Below, piece after piece: positions 431 to 8,401 of a stretch of 8,401 nucleotides of DNA. Source of the stretch: Streptosporangiaceae bacterium (GTDB taxonomy: Bacteria; Actinomycetota; Actinomycetes; Streptosporangiales; Streptosporangiaceae). The stretch is taken from contig JASHTQ010000235.1 in NCBI GenBank assembly GCA_030040475.1, forward strand, positions 1 through 8,401, in the 5' to 3' direction. Made by a program: the position numbers and the translations under genes. The notes under the pieces were generated by a model. It had not been told where the DNA came from. It was given only the letters and a program-made list of their open reading frames with translations, and ran no database searches. The number at the start of each line of letters is the position of its first letter. Positions within the stretch are counted from its first letter, which is position 1.

Positions 431-1078
431 TCAGCCCGCGTTGGTGGACCGCGACGCCAGCAGGATGCTCCGCCACCGCGGCATCAGCCCGTGCGGGACC
501 TCCTCGGCGGTCAGCGCGTAGCAGATGTGGTCCCGCCAGGCCCCGTTGATGTGCAGCTGCCGCACCCGGACACCTTCCTCGCGGAAACCGAGCTTCTCCA
601 CCACCCGGCGGGACGCGTGGTTCTCCGGCCGGATCGACGCCTCGAGCCGGTGCAGGCCTATCACGCCGAAGCAGTGGTCGACGGCCATGGCCAGCGTGGT
701 CGGGATGATGCTCCGCCCGGCGTAGGCCTCGTCGATCCAGTACCCCACCTGTCCCGAGCGGGCCGAACCCCACGTGATCGACCCGATGGTCAGCTGCCCC
801 ACGAACACCCCGTTGAACGCCACGACCCAGGGCACCGCCTGCCCCTGCCGCGCCTCGCGCCGCATGGCCCGGACCATCGCGTAGTAGGGACCCAGGCTGG
901 AGCGGTACAGCGGGGTCTCCGGGTTGGTCGGCTCCCACGGCCGCAGCCACGGCGCGTTCCGCACCCGTATCTCGCGCCACATCCGGGCGTCGCTCACCCG
1001 CACCGGGCGCAGCGCTACCGGCTCCCCGAGCAGATGGGGCTCGGTGAGCGTCACCGGCCAGCCGCGCATGCGTCCCAC
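431..1078 (-). CDS. rimJ: RimJ/RimL-type GNAT N-acetyltransferase
   Basis: A 215-residue GNAT protein of the RimJ/RimL type, which transfers acetyl from acetyl-CoA to protein N-termini; the true target is not known for this actinobacterial group. The N-terminal part has LRPVRVSDARMWREIRVRN (about 23-41) and LRPWEP. The acetyl-CoA region follows: VGYWIDEAYAGRSIIPTTLA (111-130), then LHRLEASIRPENHASRRVVE (142-161), KLGFREEGVR and a C-terminal WRDHICYALTAEEV. In the usual AGRG turn of motif A the last glycine is Ser123 here. The start is either GTG at 1078 or ATG at 1069 (codon 4). An AGGAGA lies 12 bases before the GTG. An ATG at 1089 overlapping the mog stop is out of frame. It is the last gene of the close-packed galU operon, 7 bases after mog. 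Its position next to glp and glpR matches rimJ (Rv0995) of mycobacteria. Confidence 0.88.
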   Translation of the reverse strand: MGRMRGWPVTLTEPHLLGEPVALRPVRVSDARMWREIRVRNAPWLRPWEPTNPETPLYRSSLGPYYAMVRAMRREARQGQAVPWVVAFNGVFVGQLTIGSITWGSARSGQVGYWIDEAYAGRSIIPTTLAMAVDHCFGVIGLHRLEASIRPENHASRRVVEKLGFREEGVRVRQLHINGAWRDHICYALTAEEVPHGLMPRWRSILLASRSTNAG

Positions 1079-1085
1079 GTTCCCA

Positions 1086-1658
1086 TCATTCTCCTGTATT
1101 CACGCCGGCGCTACGCGATCCTTGGTCAGCGTTTTGCGTCGGCGTCCGCCGCGCGTGATCGCCGCCGTGGATCTGCGACACCGCGTGCTCGAGGACGCCG
1201 GCCAGCACGGCCATCCCGTCGCGCACGCCGCCGGTCGATCCGGGCAGGTTGACGATCAGCGTCCGGCCCGCCACCCCGGCCACCCCCCGGGACAGGATCG
1301 CGGCCGGCACCCCGGCCGCCGCGCCGGCCAAGCGCAGCGCCTCCCCGATCCCCGGAATCTCCCTGGCCAGCACGCGCCTGGTCATCTCCGGCGTCAGGTC
1401 GGCCGGGGTGAGCCCGGTCCCGCCGGTGGTGACCACCACGTCGTAGCCCGCCGCGACCGCGTCCCGCAGCGCCGCCTCGACCGGGTCCCCGTCCGGTATC
1501 ACCAGCGGGCCGTCCACCACCGCGCACCCCGCCGAGCGCAGCAGCTCGACGAGCACCGGCCCCGACTTGTCCGCGTACACCCCGGCGGCCGCCCGGTTGG
1601 ACACCGTGACCGCGAGTGCCCTCAGCGTGCTCGGTTCACTCGCCTTCGGCTCGCTCAC
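1086..1658 (-). CDS. mog: MogA/MoaB-family molybdopterin adenylyltransferase
   Basis: A 190-residue single-domain MoCF-fold protein. This family activates molybdopterin with ATP to form adenylyl-molybdopterin, the step before molybdate insertion by MoeA. Visible motifs are the N-terminal LRALAVTVSNRAAAG (12-26), the MPT-binding loop TTGGTGLTPADLTPE (77-91), and the second loop SRGVAGVAGRTLIVNLPGST (123-142), with NLPGSTGG in place of the LPGNP loop of MoeA. The last 25 residues (HARRTPTQNADQ onward) are a polar tail beyond the fold. The GTG start at 1658 is preferred because it overlaps the moaC stop as GTGA and has GGGAG 7 bases upstream. The open frame extends further upstream but only as antisense-like Arg/Gly-rich sequence inside moaC. 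MogA and MoaB cannot be told apart from sequence alone, but moaC and glp next door support the cofactor role. Confidence 0.92.
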   Translation of the reverse strand: MSEPKASEPSTLRALAVTVSNRAAAGVYADKSGPVLVELLRSAGCAVVDGPLVIPDGDPVEAALRDAVAAGYDVVVTTGGTGLTPADLTPEMTRRVLAREIPGIGEALRLAGAAAGVPAAILSRGVAGVAGRTLIVNLPGSTGGVRDGMAVLAGVLEHAVSQIHGGDHARRTPTQNADQGSRSAGVNTGE

Positions 1659-2140
1659 GACCGCTCCCAACGCCCGGACTTCCCGCCCTGCTTCCACTCC
1701 ACCCGCACGTCGGTGATCGCGGCGGCCGGGTCGATGGCCTTGACCATGTCGATGAGCGCGAGCCCCGCCACGGCGACCGAGGTCAGCGCCTCCATCTCGA
1801 CCCCGGTCCGGTCCGCGGTGCGCGCGGTCGCGGTGATGTCCACGCCCTCGTCGGTCACCGCCAGGTCGACGGACACGCCGTGCAGCCCGATCGGGTGGCA
1901 CAGCGGGATCAGGTCAGGCGTCCGCTTGGCGCCGGCGATCCCGGCGATGCGCGCGACCGCGAGCGCGTCCCCCTTGGGCACCGCACCGGCCCGCAGCGCG
2001 GCGACCGCGGCGGCCGACAGCAGCACCCGCCCGGACGCGCACGCCGACCTGGCCGTCACGTCCTTGCCGGACACGTCGACCATCCGCGCGTGCCCGGCCG
2101 CGTCCACGTGGGTCAGCCCCCCGGCCATGACTTCGCTCAT
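1655..2140 (-). CDS. moaC: Cyclic pyranopterin monophosphate synthase MoaC
   Basis: MoaC turns 3',8-cyclo-7,8-dihydro-GTP, the product of MoaA, into cyclic pyranopterin monophosphate, the first stable intermediate of molybdenum cofactor synthesis. The 161 residues equal the usual length. The family signature is complete: LTHVDAAGHARMVDVSGK (9-26), KRTPDLIPLCHPI (72-84) with the active-site His82, RTGVEMEALTSVAVAGLALI (111-130), then DMVKAID with Asp131 and Lys134, and the C-terminal KQGGKSG (150-156). The ATG at 2140 is taken as start; an in-frame ATG at codon 5 is possible. GGGTGG about 4 bases upstream is a modest ribosome-binding site. It lies 15 bases after glp and overlaps mog by 4 bases, so the three cofactor genes are probably translated from one message. 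moaA, moaD and moaE are not in the window. Confidence 0.96.
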   Translation of the reverse strand: MSEVMAGGLTHVDAAGHARMVDVSGKDVTARSACASGRVLLSAAAVAALRAGAVPKGDALAVARIAGIAGAKRTPDLIPLCHPIGLHGVSVDLAVTDEGVDITATARTADRTGVEMEALTSVAVAGLALIDMVKAIDPAAAITDVRVEWKQGGKSGRWERS

Positions 2141-2155
2141 GGAGCCACCCTACGG

Positions 2156-3505
2156 TCAGGGCAGCACCAGCACGTCGACGGTCTCGCCCGCGGCCATCTG
2201 CACCACCCACTCCGGGACGATGATCAGCGCGTTGGCCTTGCCCAGGGTGGCGATCTGGTGCGATCCCTGGCCGGTCAGCGGCTCCACCCGCCCGGTCTTG
2301 CGGTTGAGCACCCCGCGCAGGAACGAGCGCCGGCCCGCGGGCGACCGAACCGGCGTGGTCAGCTCGGCCTGGATCGTCTCAAGCCCGAGCTTGTCGTAGC
2401 CCTGCAGCGCGCCGATGGCCGGCCGGACGAACACCTGGAACGACACGTAGGCGCTGACCGGGTTGCCTGGCAGGGTGAAGATCGGCACGTGCTCGACCGG
2501 GCCCGGCTGGCTCAGCGCGTCTTCTGCTGCCGCGTCGAACGGCCTGCGCCAGATGCGCCGCCGGGTCTTCTCCTCGGGGGCGGCGGGGGCGGCCAGGCCG
2601 ATGATGCCGAAACCCTGCGGCAGGCCCGGCTGCATCGCGACCTTGCGGAACGTGATCGTGCCGAGTTGCCGCAGCGCCGCCTTGACCACGTCGTGCTCGC
2701 CGCCCTGGCTGACCCCGCCGGTGGTGACGAGCAGGTCGGCGCGGACCAGCTGGTCCTCAAGGGCCGGCAGCACCTCCTCGGGGTTGTCGGGCACGATGGC
2801 CTGCCGGTAGGCCAGGCAGCCCGCCTCGCGCGCCGCCGCGGCGAGCATGAAGCTGTTGGAGTCGTAGATCCGGCCCGGGATGATCGGCGTGCCCGGCTCG
2901 GCCAGCTCGTTGCCGGTGGAAAGGACCACCACCCGCGGCCGCGGCCGGACCCTGACCATGGCGCGTCCGGTCGCCGCGATGACCGCGATATGCATCGGCC
3001 GGAGCATGGTGCCCTGGGTGAGGAGCACGTCGCCGGCCTTCGCGTCGCCGCCCGCCAGCCGTACCGCCTGCCCCGGCTCGGCCTTGACGTGCACGGCGAC
3101 CCTGGCCGCGCCGCCGTCGGTCCACTCCAGCGGCACCACGGCCTCGGTCCCGTGCGGCAGCATCGCGCCGGTCATGACCTTGATGCTGGCGCCCTCGGGC
3201 AGCGCGTAGGCGCCGGTGTCGCCCGCCGCGACCTCGGCCACCACGGGCAGCGTGACCGGGTGCTTCTCGGAGGCGGCGGCGACGTCCGCTACCCGGACCG
3301 CGTACCCGTCCATCGAGGAGTTGTCGAACGACGGCAGCGGCCCGGGCGCCGTGACGTCCTCGGCCAGCACCAGCCCGAGCGCGTCGCTCAGGCTGAGCTC
3401 GGTGGGCGTGAGCGGCCTGATCACCTCGAGGATCTCGCCCAGGTGCGTCTCCACCGAGGTCAGCGCCTCGTCCGAGGCGACCGGGTTCACGCTGGTCTCG
3501 GTCAT
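2156..3505 (-). CDS. glp: Gephyrin-like molybdotransferase Glp (MoeA family)
   Basis: A 449-residue MoeA/gephyrin E-domain protein, which inserts molybdate into adenylyl-molybdopterin. Key motifs are DNSSMDGYAVR (61-71, with Asp66), KVMTGAMLPHGTEAVVPLE (109-127), LSTGNEL (195-201, Glu200), GRIYDSNS (211-218), TTGGVSQGGEHDVVK (261-275), FRKVAMQPGLPQGFG (286-300), and the molybdate loop FTLPGNPVSAYVSF (343-356), followed by a C-terminal beta-barrel domain IV. The residue matching Lys279 of E. coli MoeA appears to be Gln292. About 35 extra residues (roughly 304-338) separate QGFGIIG from PIFTLPGNP and carry the basic run KTRRRIWRR; most MoeA proteins have a short turn here. The ATG at 3505 overlaps the galU stop as ATGA, so translation is probably coupled; no strong ribosome-binding site is seen. 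The nearby glpR suggests that, as in corynebacteria, this MoeA paralogue may also act in cell division. Which job dominates cannot be read from sequence. Confidence 0.93.
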   Translation of the reverse strand: MTETSVNPVASDEALTSVETHLGEILEVIRPLTPTELSLSDALGLVLAEDVTAPGPLPSFDNSSMDGYAVRVADVAAASEKHPVTLPVVAEVAAGDTGAYALPEGASIKVMTGAMLPHGTEAVVPLEWTDGGAARVAVHVKAEPGQAVRLAGGDAKAGDVLLTQGTMLRPMHIAVIAATGRAMVRVRPRPRVVVLSTGNELAEPGTPIIPGRIYDSNSFMLAAAAREAGCLAYRQAIVPDNPEEVLPALEDQLVRADLLVTTGGVSQGGEHDVVKAALRQLGTITFRKVAMQPGLPQGFGIIGLAAPAAPEEKTRRRIWRRPFDAAAEDALSQPGPVEHVPIFTLPGNPVSAYVSFQVFVRPAIGALQGYDKLGLETIQAELTTPVRSPAGRRSFLRGVLNRKTGRVEPLTGQGSHQIATLGKANALIIVPEWVVQMAAGETVDVLVLP

Positions 3506-4404
3506 GACAGGCTGTCCAGGTACTTGCGCAGCCAGGGCACGATCTCCTCGGCCAGATCGGATCTCTCGCAGGCGAACTGGACCATCGTGCGCAGGTAGTC
3601 GAGCTTGTTGCCGGTGTCGTAGCGGCGGCCGTGGAACAGCACGCCGTGCACGCCGCCGCCCTCGGCCGGGCTGCTCTTGGCCAGCTTCAGCAGCGCGTCG
3701 GTGAGCTGGATCTCCCCGCCCCGCCCCGGCGGCGTGTGCCGCAGCACCTCGAACACGGCCGGGTCGCAGACGTAGCGGCCGATCAGGATCCACCGGCTCG
3801 GGGCCGAGCCGGGCACCGGCTTCTCGATCAGGTCGGTGACCGTGACCACGTCCTCCTCCGCGGTCGGCGTGATCGCCGCGCAGCCGTACTGCGAGACCTG
3901 CTCCGGGTCGACCTCCATCAGCGCGACCACGCTGCCGCCGTAGCGCCTGCGCACCTCGATCATCCTGGTGAGCAGCCGGTCGCGGCTGTCGATCAGGTCG
4001 TCGCCGAGCAGCACCGCGAACGGCTCGTCGCCGACATGCTGGGCGGCGCAGAGCACCGCGTGGCCGAGTCCCTTCGGGTCGCCCTGCCGGACGTAGTGCA
4101 CGGTGGCGAGTTCACTGGACTCGCGCACCAGGGCGAGCCGCTCGGCCTCGTCCTTGGCTGCCAGCGCCTCCTCGAGCTCATAGGCCCGGTCGAAGTGATC
4201 CTCGATCGACCGCTTGCTCCGGCCGGTGATCATCAGCACGTCGTCAAGCCCGGCCGCGACGGCCTCCTCCACCACATACTGGATGGCGGGCTTGTCGACC
4301 ACGGGCAGCATTTCCTTCGGCGTCGCCTTGGTCGCGGGCAGGAACCTGGTGCCAAGCCCCGCCGCAGGAATGACCGCCTTGGCCACAGCCTCACTATCAG
4401 CCAT
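3502..4404 (-). CDS. galU: UTP-glucose-1-phosphate uridylyltransferase GalU
   Basis: A cytoplasmic enzyme that makes UDP-glucose from UTP and glucose-1-phosphate, feeding cell-wall glycans, glycolipids and trehalose or glycogen pathways. The 300 residues fit the bacterial GalU length. Motifs: AAGLGTRFLPATKATPKEML (14-33), the nucleotide-binding signature; QGDPKGLGHAVLCA (107-120); LLGDDLI (132-138) with metal-binding Asp; LIEKP (192-196); GGEIQLTDAL (229-238); and GRRYDTGNKLDYL (259-271) binding the sugar phosphate. An upstream in-frame extension to 4551 exists but reads through the promoter and the divergent gene, so I reject it. The ATG at 4404 has no ribosome-binding site at the right distance; instead TAGTGT lies 7 bases before it, fitting a leaderless message. 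It heads the operon galU-glp-moaC-mog-rimJ. Confidence 0.97.
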   Translation of the reverse strand: MADSEAVAKAVIPAAGLGTRFLPATKATPKEMLPVVDKPAIQYVVEEAVAAGLDDVLMITGRSKRSIEDHFDRAYELEEALAAKDEAERLALVRESSELATVHYVRQGDPKGLGHAVLCAAQHVGDEPFAVLLGDDLIDSRDRLLTRMIEVRRRYGGSVVALMEVDPEQVSQYGCAAITPTAEEDVVTVTDLIEKPVPGSAPSRWILIGRYVCDPAVFEVLRHTPPGRGGEIQLTDALLKLAKSSPAEGGGVHGVLFHGRRYDTGNKLDYLRTMVQFACERSDLAEEIVPWLRKYLDSLS

Positions 4405-4411
4405 GCTCAGA

Positions 4412-4468: not shown

Positions 4469-5059
4469 GTGACCGACGCCAAAGCGGAGAAGGCGCGGTT
4501 GAGATCGCGGTTGCTAGCGGATCGGGCCAGGCTCTCCGCGGAACAGCGCACTCAAGCCGCGAGGCTGATCAGGGACGCGCTCCTCGGGTTGCCCGCGATG
4601 GGGATGGCGGGGACGGTCGCGGCGTATTACTCCGTCGGGGCGGAGCCGGATACGCGGGGTCTCATCTTCGCCTTGTGGAAGCGCGGCACGTACGTGCTGC
4701 TGCCGATCCTGCGCGAGGACGGTGACCTGGACTGGGCTTCCTACGAGGGACCCGAGTCGCTGGTCCGGGGGAGAAGGGGACTGTGGGAGCCGGGGGAGGC
4801 CCGCCGGGGAGTCGAGGCGGTGGCTAGCGCGGACGTGGTGCTGGCGCCGGCGCTCGCGGTGGACGCGGCCGGGAACAGGCTCGGGCGGGGCGGCGGGAGT
4901 TTTGATCGTGCGCTGGGCCGGGTGGGACCGCTGATCCCGGTGATCGCGTTGCTATACGACGACGAACTGGTCAAGCGCGTCCCGACCGAGCCGCATGACC
5001 TGCGGGTGCGTGCCGTAGCGCGCCCCGCGACCGGGATAACGGCACTGCCGGCCGCCTAG
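4469..5059 (+). CDS. 5-formyltetrahydrofolate cyclo-ligase (5,10-methenyltetrahydrofolate synthetase)
   Basis: Converts 5-formyl-tetrahydrofolate to 5,10-methenyl-tetrahydrofolate with ATP, returning a dead-end folate to one-carbon metabolism. The 196-residue length is normal. Family features: the basic N-terminal helix KARLRSRLLADRARLSAEQR (8-27), VAAYYSVGAEPDTRGLI (50-66), LPILREDGDLDW (78-89), GLWEP (104-108), and the signature ADVVLAPALAVDAAGNRLGR (121-140) running into GGGSFDRAL (141-149), where most relatives have GGGYYDR. The C-terminal VIALLYDDELVKRVPTEPHD (158-177) closes the fold. Gene order (FmdB gene, this gene, galU) is the same as Rv0991c-Rv0993 in M. tuberculosis, although here this gene and the FmdB gene are separated by a hairpin and a new promoter. 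The stop codon TAG lies inside that hairpin's loop. Confidence 0.95.
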   Translation: MTDAKAEKARLRSRLLADRARLSAEQRTQAARLIRDALLGLPAMGMAGTVAAYYSVGAEPDTRGLIFALWKRGTYVLLPILREDGDLDWASYEGPESLVRGRRGLWEPGEARRGVEAVASADVVLAPALAVDAAGNRLGRGGGSFDRALGRVGPLIPVIALLYDDELVKRVPTEPHDLRVRAVARPATGITALPAA

Positions 5060-5066
5060 CGGCCGG
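5048..5066 (+). terminator. Perfect GC hairpin spanning the cyclo-ligase stop codon
   Basis: CCGGCCGC (5048-5055), loop CTA, GCGGCCGG (5059-5066): a perfect 8-base-pair stem, extendable by a G-U pair (5047/5067). The TAG stop codon (5057-5059) covers loop and stem. There is no T-run after it, as is common for terminators in high-GC actinomycetes. It would separate the cyclo-ligase transcript from the heat-shock-type promoter downstream. Confidence 0.5.
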
Positions 5067-5099
5067 TTGCGGAATCTCGGGGGGTGCCGCGGGGTTAGA

Positions 5100-5134
5100 T
5101 ATGCTTAGCAGTCGCATATCGCGAGTGCTAATGT
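5100..5134 (+). promoter_or_regulatory. Candidate promoter(s) of the FmdB-mtnP operon
   Basis: Two TANNNT hexamers flank the operator: TATGCT (5100-5105), ending at the first base of CIRCE, and TAATGT (5129-5134), overlapping its last three bases. With the first, transcription would begin inside CIRCE, and with the second CIRCE would fill the -10/-35 spacer (TTAGCA at 5105-5110 is 18 bases upstream). Either position fits repression by HrcA. I cannot choose between them from sequence. Confidence 0.4.
5105..5131 (+). promoter_or_regulatory. CIRCE operator (HrcA heat-shock repressor site)
   Basis: TTAGCAGTC, nine bases, then GAGTGCTAA. The CIRCE consensus is TTAGCACTC-N9-GAGTGCTAA, so 17 of 18 arm bases match and the spacer has the exact length; the only difference is G for C at 5111. 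HrcA binds this element and represses chaperone genes until heat stress. It sits 57 bases before the FmdB-type gene and reads into no groES or groEL gene. In M. tuberculosis the syntenic gene Rv0991c (Ruc) is likewise an HrcA target, which supports the assignment. Confidence 0.93.
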
Positions 5135-5188
5135 GATCTACCGAGTTGCGCCCGCGCTGGTCCTAGCGGCCCGCGTGAAGGAGGGTCC

Positions 5189-5545
5189 GTGCCGACATAT
5201 CAGTACACCTGCACCGACTGTGGTGAGCCGGTTGAGGCGGTGCAGAAGTTCACCGACCCGCCGCTGAGCGTCTGCGCGGCCTGCGGGGGCAAGCTCAGGA
5301 AGGTCTTCTCCCCGGTCGGCATCGTGTTCAAGGGGTCGGGTTTCTACCGCACGGACAACAGGAACGGGTCCTCCTCCGGGACCTCGGAGAAGTCCGAGAA
5401 GAAGGACAAGCAGTCCAGCGACTCCGGTTCGTCGAGCACGTCGGGTGACTCCGCTTCAACCAACGGCTCGGCCGAGAAGTCGGCGAAGAAGTCCGAAGCC
5501 GTGGCCTCGTCCAAGTCGTCCTCGTCCAGCGAGAAGGTCGCCTGA
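5189..5545 (+). CDS. FmdB-family zinc-ribbon protein, Ruc-like redox-regulated chaperone candidate
   Basis: A 118-residue protein with an N-terminal zinc ribbon, MPTYQYTCTDCG, using Cys8, Cys11, Cys29 and Cys32 (CxxC-17-CxxC), then KVFSPVGIVFKGSGFYRTD (38-56), the FmdB-family hallmark. Residues 58-118 are low complexity, almost only Ser, Lys, Glu, Gly and Asp with no further cysteine, and must be disordered. The GTG start at 5189 has an excellent AAGGAGGG 3 bases upstream. Many databases call this family a transcriptional regulator, but the syntenic M. tuberculosis protein Ruc (Rv0991c) was shown to be a chaperone for unfolded proteins, activated by oxidation of its zinc cysteines, with a disordered tail. 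Shared architecture, gene neighbourhood and a CIRCE element argue for the same role here, as inference. The mtnP gene starts 6 bases after the stop, so the two are probably co-transcribed and heat-induced. Confidence 0.9.
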   Translation: MPTYQYTCTDCGEPVEAVQKFTDPPLSVCAACGGKLRKVFSPVGIVFKGSGFYRTDNRNGSSSGTSEKSEKKDKQSSDSGSSSTSGDSASTNGSAEKSAKKSEAVASSKSSSSSEKVA

Positions 5546-5551
5546 CCGGCG

Positions 5552-6358
5552 ATGGCGGACGTGGCGGGCATCGCCGTCGTCGGCGGCTCGGGCTTTTACG
5601 AGTTCCTTGAAGACGCCGAAGAGGTCAAGCTCGACACCCCGTTCGGCCCCCCGAGCGACCCGATCGCGGTGGGGGAGGTGGCAGGGCGGCGGGTCGCGTT
5701 CCTGCCCAGGCACGGCCGGGACCACAGGTTCCCGCCGCACAAGATCCCCTACCGCGCGAACATGTGGGCGCTGCGCTCGCTCGGCGTGCGCCGGGTCCTC
5801 GCGCCGACCGCCGTCGGCTCGCTGACCCCCTCCTACGGGCCAGGCACGCTCGTCATCCCCGACCAGCTGGTGGACCGCACCAGGATGCGGGAGCAGACCT
5901 ACTACGACGACGGCGCCTGCCATGTGCCGTTCGCCGACCCGTACTGCCCGTCGCTGCGCCCGGCCGCGATCGAGACCGCGCGCAAGTCCGGCTGGGTCCC
6001 CGCGGCCGCCGGGACCCTGGTCGTCATCGAGGGCCCGAGGTTCTCCACCCGCGCCGAGTCGCAGTGGTTCGCCGCCCAGGGCTGGACCCTGGTCGGCATG
6101 ACCGGCCACCCCGAGGCGGTCCTGGCCCGCGAACTCGCTGTCTGCTACGCCCCGCTGGCCCTGGTCACCGACCTCGACGCCGGCCTCGAAGAGGGCGAGG
6201 GCGTGACCCAGGCCGAGGTCTTCGAGGTGTTCGCCGCCAACATCGAGCGCCTCCGCGCGCTGGTCGGCACGATCATCGCCGCGCTCCCCGCCGAACGCGA
6301 AGACGACCTCTGCGCGCACGCCCTGGACGGCATCAGCCTCCCCTTTGACCTGCCCTAG
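5552..6358 (+). CDS. mtnP: S-methyl-5'-thioadenosine phosphorylase
   Basis: Cleaves methylthioadenosine with phosphate to adenine and 5-methylthioribose-1-phosphate, the first step of methionine salvage after polyamine or homoserine-lactone type reactions. The 268 residues show the nucleoside phosphorylase class II fold: phosphate loop GGSGFY (11-16), PRHGRDHRFPPHKIPYRAN (52-70), EGPRFSTRAES (160-170), GMTGHPEAVLARE (182-194) and VTDLDAG (205-211). Asp207 and Asp209 match the adenine-recognising pair of human MTAP (Asp220, Asp222), which argues against an inosine or guanosine phosphorylase. The Asn of the human NMT motif is Gly182 here, a common actinobacterial form as far as I recall. ATG 5552 is taken as start; GTG at codon 4 is the alternative and no strong ribosome-binding site is seen, so translation may be coupled to the FmdB gene. 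Operon with the CIRCE-controlled gene upstream. Confidence 0.93.
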   Translation: MADVAGIAVVGGSGFYEFLEDAEEVKLDTPFGPPSDPIAVGEVAGRRVAFLPRHGRDHRFPPHKIPYRANMWALRSLGVRRVLAPTAVGSLTPSYGPGTLVIPDQLVDRTRMREQTYYDDGACHVPFADPYCPSLRPAAIETARKSGWVPAAAGTLVVIEGPRFSTRAESQWFAAQGWTLVGMTGHPEAVLARELAVCYAPLALVTDLDAGLEEGEGVTQAEVFEVFAANIERLRALVGTIIAALPAEREDDLCAHALDGISLPFDLP

Positions 6359-6362
6359 CGCT

Positions 6363-6381
6363 CCCGCCGCGGGTCGGCGGG
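6363..6381. terminator. GC hairpin between convergent genes, probably two-way terminator
   Basis: CCCGCCG (6363-6369), five-base loop, CGGCGGG (6375-6381): a perfect 7-base-pair stem just after the mtnP stop and 49 bases beyond the end of the convergent GNAT gene. It lacks a T-run. Position between converging genes makes a shared terminator likely. Confidence 0.5.
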
Positions 6382-6429
6382 CCGGCCTGGGGGAGATACC
6401 ACGGCTCGTTCGGGATAAATGCTTTCTTC

Positions 6430-6951
6430 CTAGATACGGCGGGTCAGGACCACGCCTTCCCAGCCGCCTGCTACGGCGGGAAGCGATACCTGCCCGGTGC
6501 GGGTGAAGCCGGCCCGTTCGTAGTAGCGGACCAGGGCCTGGCCGCCGCCGGCCCAGCAGTCCAGCCTGAGCTGGCGGGCGCCGCGCTCGGCGGCCTCGCG
6601 CCCGGCGGCGTCCAGCATCAGCTGCCCGACGCCGCGCCCGGCGTGCCGCCGGTCGACCACGAGGTGCGCGAGGTACAGTTCCGGCTCGGCGGCCGGCGCG
6701 ACGTACCTGGGGGCCTGCGTGACCCACAGCGCCGCTACCAGGTCGCCGTCCGCTGCCGCCGCGACGCGCAGGCCGCCGGCCCGGACCACGTGCTCCAGCC
6801 CGGCGGCCATCTCGGGCTGCCGCGACCATGGCTCGGTGCCCCACTGCCCGGCCCGGCCGGTCTCGGCCAGCCACCGCACCGCCTGGTCGTAGAGCGCCAT
6901 GACGCGCGGCACGTCGGCGGCGGCGCCGGCGCGGACGTGCGTGCCTGCCAT
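6430..6951 (-). CDS. GNAT family N-acetyltransferase
   Basis: A 173-residue single-domain GNAT enzyme with unknown substrate. The N-terminal THVRAGAAADVPRVMALYDQ (4-23) is the usual first strand and helix. RTGQWGTEPWS (33-43, reading GRAGQWG) forms a substrate-side loop typical of a broad actinomycete subgroup. The acetyl-CoA motif A is LYLAHLVVDRRHAGRGVGQL (92-111), with the RxxGxG pattern at Arg102-Gly107, and the C-terminal part has LRLDCWAGGGQALVRYYERA (128-147) plus GF. The ATG at 6951 is chosen because TATGGT lies exactly 7 bases upstream, in line with the other gene starts here; in-frame ATG 6963 and GTG 6960 would lie within that -10 box. It is a single-gene unit, divergent from the hydrolase gene and convergent with mtnP. 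It is not the same subfamily as the RimJ-like enzyme in the window. Confidence 0.85.
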   Translation of the reverse strand: MAGTHVRAGAAADVPRVMALYDQAVRWLAETGRAGQWGTEPWSRQPEMAAGLEHVVRAGGLRVAAAADGDLVAALWVTQAPRYVAPAAEPELYLAHLVVDRRHAGRGVGQLMLDAAGREAAERGARQLRLDCWAGGGQALVRYYERAGFTRTGQVSLPAVAGGWEGVVLTRRI

Positions 6952-7646: not shown

Positions 7647-7719
<73 letters not shown>

Positions 7720-7760
7720 CAGGTCAGAGGAGTTGTGCTGAGGCGGGCGGCGCGGCAGGA

Positions 7761-7795: not shown

Positions 7796-8401
7796 ATGTC
7801 TGAGACCGCACTCCAGCGCCGTCGTCCTCGCGGCGAGGACGGGATCTACTTCGTCGCGTCGAAGGACCGGTACGTGGGATCGGTCTCGCTCGGCTACGGG
7901 CCGGATGGCAAGCGGATCCGGCGGACAGTCCTCGGCAAGACCAAGCAGGAGGTCCGGGCCAAGCTCCGGGACCTGCACAAGGAGCTTGACCGCGGGGTGA
8001 AGCCGTCGCCCACCTATTCGGTGCGGCAGGCGGTGGAGGACTGGCTGGCCGAGGGGCTCGACGACGCCTCCTCGCGTACCCGGACTCTTTATGAGGGGCT
8101 GCTGGAGCCGGTGCTGGAGATGATCGGTGCCCGGCCGCTGCGGGATCTGAGCGCGGGGGATGTCCGGTCGGCGCTCGGCGAGCTGGTGGGCCGGTATTCG
8201 ACCCGGTCGCTGCAGATTACCCGGAATTCGCTGGAGCGGGCGATTTGGCACGCCGAGGGTAACGACCTCGTCGGGCGGAATGTCGCGGCGCTGGTGAGGG
8301 CGCCGCGGGGCCGGGGCGGGCGGCCGTCGAAGAGCCTCACGCTGGAGCAGGCTAAGGCCTTGCTGGCCGTGGTGGAGGGGACGCGGTGGCATGCGTATGT
8401 C
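7796..8401 (+). CDS. int: Tyrosine-recombinase integrase (partial, catalytic domain outside window)
   Basis: The first 202 codons of an integrase, open at the window edge. Residues 16-68 form an AP2-like arm-binding domain typical of actinomycete integrases: GSVSLGYGPDGKRIRRTVLG (28-47), then KTKQEVRAKLRDLHKELDRG. Residues 74-170 form the SAM-like core-binding domain, with VRQAVEDWL (76-84), RTRTLYEGLLEPV, IGARPLRDLSAGDVRSAL and a long helix STRSLQITRNSLERAIWHA (135-153). The linker APRGRGGRPSKSLTLEQAKA (169-188) leads into the catalytic domain, whose Arg-His-Arg-Tyr residues would come after the edge, so activity cannot be judged. By hand count 26 of 202 codons end in A or T, against 13 of 268 in mtnP, in keeping with foreign origin. 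Position right after tRNA-Arg(CCT) suggests an integrative conjugative element or prophage that used this tRNA. Confidence 0.92.
   Translation, partial: MSETALQRRRPRGEDGIYFVASKDRYVGSVSLGYGPDGKRIRRTVLGKTKQEVRAKLRDLHKELDRGVKPSPTYSVRQAVEDWLAEGLDDASSRTRTLYEGLLEPVLEMIGARPLRDLSAGDVRSALGELVGRYSTRSLQITRNSLERAIWHAEGNDLVGRNVAALVRAPRGRGGRPSKSLTLEQAKALLAVVEGTRWHAYV

Follow-up and report, generated by a model that had tools for sequence, protein, structure and literature searches.

The fmdB (ruc) gene in the 8,401-nucleotide stretch of DNA analyzed here (the window) is preceded by a CIRCE inverted repeat, the predicted operator of HrcA, and by a sequence motif of the SigR/SigH type. In our estimate, with a probability of roughly 85%, a functional CIRCE element and a SigR/SigH-type promoter together control a unit composed of fmdB(ruc) and the adjoining gene for S-methyl-5'-thioadenosine phosphorylase (MTAP), the first of which would encode a Ruc-type redox chaperone. 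Both HrcA regulation and a chaperone role have already been published for the orthologue from Mycobacterium tuberculosis, according to the available sections of that work (PMC7448276), and the main claim is to that extent not new. What is added here is the breadth of conservation, the spacing between promoter and operator, an asymmetric operator that extends throughout an order, and MTAP as the likely operon partner.

The repeat occupies positions 5105-5131 of the + strand and consists of TTAGCAGTC-GCATATCGC-GAGTGCTAA, with a 9-base spacer. The CIRCE consensus used for scoring is TTAGCACTC-N9-GAGTGCTAA. Compared with it, 17 of the 18 arm bases agree, as the initial annotation had described, the one mismatch being a C to G change in the left arm. 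In the whole window this is the sole match at 3 mismatches or fewer. The site is intergenic, being situated in the 129-bp gap between the stop of the 5-formyltetrahydrofolate cyclo-ligase gene (+ strand, ending at 5059) and the GTG start codon of fmdB (5189), 57 bp ahead of the latter. A Shine-Dalgarno-like sequence, AAGGAGGG (5178-5185, + strand), recognized by direct reading, precedes the start codon, and the fmdB reading frame runs on the + strand to its stop at 5545. Judged from its arms and from its conservation in relatives, the window element is most probably a working HrcA operator.

Conservation was analyzed initially in fmdB loci obtained by a protein search of contigs from one genome per species, the best 80 of 576 confirmed loci being retained. 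Within the 300 nt upstream of fmdB, a CIRCE element with up to 5 mismatches was detected in 76 of these best 80 of 576 loci, so that the repeat is indeed conserved upstream of orthologous fmdB genes, the comparison that had been proposed earlier. The best match per locus carried no mismatch in 1 case, one in 6, two in 46, three in 20, four in 2 and five in 1, and the sequence of the spacer varies among the relatives while the arms are conserved. Among shuffled upstream regions, 3 out of 1600 attained 5 mismatches and none had fewer. In the four other loci (L010, L029, L049 and L050) no CIRCE was found in the 300 nt upstream of fmdB, the best match having 9 mismatches. The genomes of these four, despite their CIRCE-less fmdB copy, contain hrcA and CIRCE elements elsewhere.

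As the 80 loci had been chosen by similarity, whole genomes were also sampled with a strict pattern, comprising the CIRCE core and the fmdB start with zero mismatches, for which the reversed pattern served as control. The nearest-80 set is skewed towards Actinomycetes, a bias that is offset by draws made across the phylum. Genomes with the strict pattern numbered 144 of 150 in Streptosporangiales (the order of the MAG that carries locus L004), 93 of 148 in the class and 16 of 198 in the phylum, while the control gave 0 in each sample. These counts are lower bounds, because the pattern missed two genomes, G341 (L004) and G439 (L209), in which fmdB does have a CIRCE, with 3 mismatches in the former and 2 in the latter. 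A second pattern, which combined the promoter motif, CIRCE and fmdB, recovered 7 further class genomes beyond the strict set. The fmdB gene itself was present in 188 of the 198 phylum genomes; of the 30 fmdB matches that scored best in the phylum draw, 9 carried CIRCE at 5 mismatches or fewer, one of the nine being the L017 gene, which recurs here. All six relatives from the order that were read with fmdB in view have a CIRCE with 2-3 mismatches. The association of CIRCE with fmdB is near-constant in the likely order of the window and, as the counts for order, class and phylum indicate, only some members of the phylum have it. This confinement (16 of 198), together with the SigR/SigH-type motif and the adjoining MTAP gene described below, goes beyond the initial annotation.

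It is extremely improbable that the palindrome is an accident or a relic to which HrcA does not bind. Such an origin would be in keeping with the arm mismatch in the window and with the left arm of all 144 strict order matches, which departs from the consensus at one base. Nevertheless, none of 200 dinucleotide shuffles of the window produced a match, the repeat recurs in 76 of the best 80 of 576 loci and in 144 of 150 order genomes with a variable spacer, and a scan of the 854,006 other positions of these loci, on the strand as given, yielded five matches at exactly 5 mismatches and none at 4 or fewer. An origin by chance was rejected on the grounds of the shuffles and the conservation.

The base at the variant position of the left arm had been left free in the strict pattern, and its variants were tallied from the match listing. 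Among the 144 strict matches in Streptosporangiales, the arm contained GCAGTC in 133 and GCAATC in 11, whereas the consensus-type GCACTC was absent (0). The single mismatch of the window element is the rule in its order and not private to the window; in other clades the same base is mixed. In genome G006 (Microtetraspora, a genus which we take to belong to the same order as the window), the five other CIRCE sites, located ahead of groES, hrcA and two groEL genes, all contain GCACTC. The asymmetric fmdB operator of the order is perhaps a weaker one.

The presence of the repressor gene was assessed in several sets of genomes. The hrcA gene was found in the L004 genome (1 of 1), in all 19 further order genomes, which were picked by their best MTAP matches, in all 13 genomes of other fmdB loci (the CIRCE-less four included) and in 181 of the 198 phylum genomes. 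When the same 13 genomes were scanned with a relaxed version of the CIRCE pattern that tolerated 2 mismatches at most, there were 3-8 matches per strand versus 0-3 for the reversed control, amounting to 69 distinct CIRCE-like sites. The genes beside these sites were recognized by eye from their N-terminal residues and from the hrcA positions: groEL followed 23 of them, groES 21, hrcA 11 and fmdB 9, together 64 of the 69. Behind the remaining five sites, each with 2 mismatches, no heat-shock gene was recognized by eye. Some CIRCE-like sites lie between divergent genes, the second of which faces the opposite side. Paired sites were observed at groES in 8 and at groEL in 10 of the 13 genomes, and all nine fmdB sites were single. 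The fmdB gene is an extra member of the standard HrcA regulon and no substitute for groE; the initial annotation, which had placed CIRCE at fmdB "instead of groE", has to be corrected in this respect, the site being an additional one. By analogy with the M. tuberculosis orthologue, HrcA would be expected to bind the CIRCE of the window.

The gene controlled by this site (5189-5545, + strand) encodes a protein of 118 residues, composed of a Cys4 zinc ribbon and a hydrophilic tail. Its earlier assignment to the FmdB family is borne out by matches to PF09723 (E 8.1e-15) and TIGR02605 (E 9.4e-18). In the set formed by the window protein and those of the best 80 of 576 loci, 80 of 81 sequences have their first four cysteines at positions 8, 11, 29 and 32; in the single exception, L005, the same four are accompanied by Cys13. 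An alignment of 26 proteins displays an invariant block up to about residue 56, followed by freely variable tails, and 95% of the residues after position 52 are S, T, G, N, A, E, D, K, Q, R or P. The predicted model contains three short strands within residues 3-39 and nothing structured after residue 40, with a pLDDT of 50-62 in the tail block; given its mean pLDDT of 64.5 and pTM of 0.32, trust in the model is limited to the ribbon. The composition of the tail and the lack of predicted structure suggest that it is probably disordered. A search for a solved structure of a relative gave none at a significant E-value, the top PDB sequence match being a chain of the DnaJ family (E 0.59).

FmdB proteins have traditionally been labelled transcription regulators. 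It could accordingly be argued that HrcA does bind, but that the operator builds a regulatory relay through such a regulator and does not serve chaperone supply. We regard this as quite unlikely: the zinc ribbon fold (PF09723, TIGR02605) would suit a regulator, but the M. tuberculosis orthologue has a measured redox-dependent chaperone activity and loses its zinc upon oxidation, according to the available text of PMC7448276, and in the window protein both the cysteine quartet and the hydrophilic tail are preserved. In the same available text, M. tuberculosis Ruc (Rv0991c) is described as a disordered protein that binds one zinc, and its oxidized form as a holdase that assists DnaKJE; the primer names given there indicate that Cys 8, 11, 29 and 32 were the positions mutated. 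Becker et al. (2020), in the sections available, also reported that HrcA directly represses ruc together with three Hsp60/Hsp10 genes in M. tuberculosis (PMC7448276). The link to Ruc and to the chaperone stress response, proposed in the initial annotation, is thus supported, and had already been published for the orthologue. By analogy with this orthologue, the window FmdB would likewise possess redox-chaperone activity.

A putative promoter of the SigR/SigH type precedes the operator, with a -35 element GGAAT (5071-5075), an 18-nt spacer and a -10 element GTT (5094-5096), all on the + strand (5071-5096). GGAAT-N18-GTT has a single exact match in the window. Upstream of fmdB, GGAA[T/C]-N18-GTT was detected in 33 of the best 80 of 576 loci, as compared with 8 of 1600 shuffles, while other spacers in these loci were rare or lacking (N17 and N19, none; N14 and N16, two each). 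In the 33 loci (best 80 of 576), GTT overlaps CIRCE by 2 nt in 24 cases, touches it in 1 and precedes it by 4 nt in 8. The gap in the window is 8 nt, outside the three spacings of the best-80-of-576 set. Among the order relatives with fmdB in view, 5 of 6 carry the N18 motif: L209 has GGAATC and an 8-nt gap to CIRCE, identical to the window, and L204, L205, L208 and L210 have GGAAC-N18-GTT with a gap of 16 nt. These gaps of 8 and 16 nt point to a looser spacing between motif and CIRCE in this order.

Several observations favour an alternative in which HrcA does repress the gene, but at a housekeeping promoter, and the window has its GGAAT-N18-GTT by accident. At least one such motif occurs somewhere in 11 of 200 window shuffles; base 6 of the -35 region is C in the window, compared with R in the M. 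tuberculosis SigH consensus GGAAYR-N17-GTT given in the accessible part of PMC4803200; and the strict N18 motif is missing from 47 of the best 80 of 576 loci, several clades having other shared upstream blocks instead, such as TGGACGAA in Micromonosporaceae. Against it, CIRCE comes directly after the motif, as in 33 of the best 80 of 576 relatives, L209 reproduces the same 8-nt gap, and a simple consensus scan of positions 4900-6900 found no sigma-70-like promoter. On balance, an accidental motif appears rather unlikely, and sigma-factor control of the window promoter, as judged by the motif, is likely. When the class sample was screened for the motif, CIRCE and fmdB jointly, 20 of 148 genomes matched (control, 0). 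The pattern used permitted 5-35 nt after CIRCE, and the longer leader of the window itself would escape it. In view of this count, the 47 loci without the motif and the other upstream blocks, the sigma-factor component is not general, although it is likely for the window.

In six Micromonosporaceae loci (L003, L048, L053, L067, L072 and L073), TGGACGAA ... ATG[AC]CGCA[CA]CA stands directly before CIRCE, and GGAAT-N18-GTT is lacking. This block is possibly the promoter of another sigma factor.

The MTAP gene (5552-6358, + strand; NF005876, E 3.3e-131; TIGR01694, E 2.3e-91) begins 6 bp after the fmdB stop. No terminator was found on the + strand between the two genes, and there is one match on the - strand inside fmdB. 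The window MTAP is up to 75% identical to its matches in the order. In 23 of the best 80 of 576 loci, less than 400 nt separate the fmdB stop from the beginning of an MTAP match, a count to be read in the light of the fact that some contigs end too early to tell. A true MTAP was found in 87 order genomes, of which 4 lacked the strict CIRCE-fmdB pattern and two (G458 and G459) had the genes on separate contigs. In all of the other 81, MTAP is located downstream of the strict CIRCE-fmdB, on the same strand and contig, within 4.65 kb, and for 42 of the 81 its distance from the fmdB start does not exceed 760 nt. In another sample, 14 of 20 order MTAP loci had no fmdB within the 1.5 kb of sequence covered. 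The spacing of the two genes suggests that they are co-transcribed and that MTAP is a probable operon partner of fmdB.

According to the mechanism proposed here, CIRCE would be placed at or just past the transcription start of the fmdB(ruc)-MTAP unit, a position suggested by the spacing. In unstressed cells, HrcA on CIRCE would block the GGAAT-N18-GTT promoter situated just upstream. Heat would inactivate or remove HrcA, and thiol or heat stress would free the ECF sigma factor, so that full expression would require both events. The product would be a Ruc-type Cys4 zinc ribbon, which upon oxidation would lose its zinc and become a holdase that passes its clients to DnaK. Both arms of this control, repression by HrcA and activation by SigH, are assumed for the window gene from its M. 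tuberculosis orthologue.

A broader proposal can be put forward tentatively, at clearly less than even odds. In a large share of the Actinomycetes, the HrcA regulon would have the Ruc gene as its regular fourth member, the single asymmetric operator of the order would confer weaker repression than that of groE, and the same HrcA and SigR switch would drive MTAP. If true, the salvage of sulfur and adenine by MTAP would be coupled to protein-damage stress. Mycobacteria are not the only group with a CIRCE ahead of a Ruc-type gene, and in at least one order of actinomycetes this arrangement is nearly constant; the label of "FmdB regulator" proteins of this kind could therefore be changed to probable stress chaperone. 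The findings also point to non-pathogenic, tractable hosts for dual control by HrcA and SigR and for the possible link with MTAP salvage.

The remainder of the window provides the genomic setting. The genes for galU, glp/moeA, moaC, a molybdopterin-binding (MoCF) protein and a RimJ-like acetyltransferase occupy positions 434-4410 on the - strand, divergent from the 5-formyltetrahydrofolate cyclo-ligase gene, and this neighbourhood is kept in many of the best 80 of 576 loci. For GalU and MoaC the nearest of these is L004, with 79% and 80% identity (best segment), respectively; together with the MTAP identity given above, these values would place the window in Streptosporangiales. At the other end, a tRNA-Arg (CCT) gene (7647-7720) lies 75 bp ahead of an integrase gene whose first part occupies 7796-8401 (PHROG 1, E 3.2e-16); this gene runs off the window and in Pfam matches only Phage_int_M, below threshold. 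The tRNA and integrase probably mark one boundary of an element that has inserted at the tRNA gene, and the opposite boundary would lie beyond the window.

In the open-licence PMC literature, as far as its texts were available, nothing clearly on the subject of CIRCE at fmdB outside mycobacteria was found, and such reports may exist elsewhere; the same literature yielded no report that connects MTAP and FmdB with heat shock or a sigma factor. The available part of PMC3489674 contains no mention of FmdB, CIRCE or Rv0991c. For M. tuberculosis itself, the rv0991c-rv0990c pair is also named as an HrcA-regulated operon in the accessible text of PMC8557902, and ruc is induced by SigH, according to the available sections of PMC7448276.

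The classical CIRCE/HrcA operons (groES, groEL and hrcA) share with the window the same inverted repeat and its 9-nt spacer. In contrast to these operons, the window site controls a zinc ribbon protein that is not an ATPase, and the often paired sites of groES and groEL differ from the single fmdB sites in the 13 genomes. The window promoter would belong to the SigR/SigH thiol- and heat-stress regulon as judged by its putative motif, GGAAT-N18-GTT, which is here combined with a nearby CIRCE. Among mycobacteria, the locus of M. interjectum (L024) has the same neighbours, namely 5-formyltetrahydrofolate cyclo-ligase, galU, glp/moeA and a rimJ-like gene. In M. tuberculosis, as far as the available text describes it, ruc has an HrcA site and a SigH-type promoter, to which the predicted operator and the putative promoter of the window would correspond, and encodes a zinc-binding protein with Cys 8, 11, 29 and 32 and a disordered tail; the window protein has the same four cysteines and a tail that is probably disordered. 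The two systems differ in that the HrcA and SigH sites overlap in M. tuberculosis, in the sections available of PMC7448276, whereas GTT and CIRCE are 8 nt apart in the window. Moreover, the left arm of the window element is the GCAGTC variant, unlike that of the M. tuberculosis ruc control region, and the gene that follows is MTAP, whereas in M. tuberculosis it is Rv0990c (Hsp22.5).
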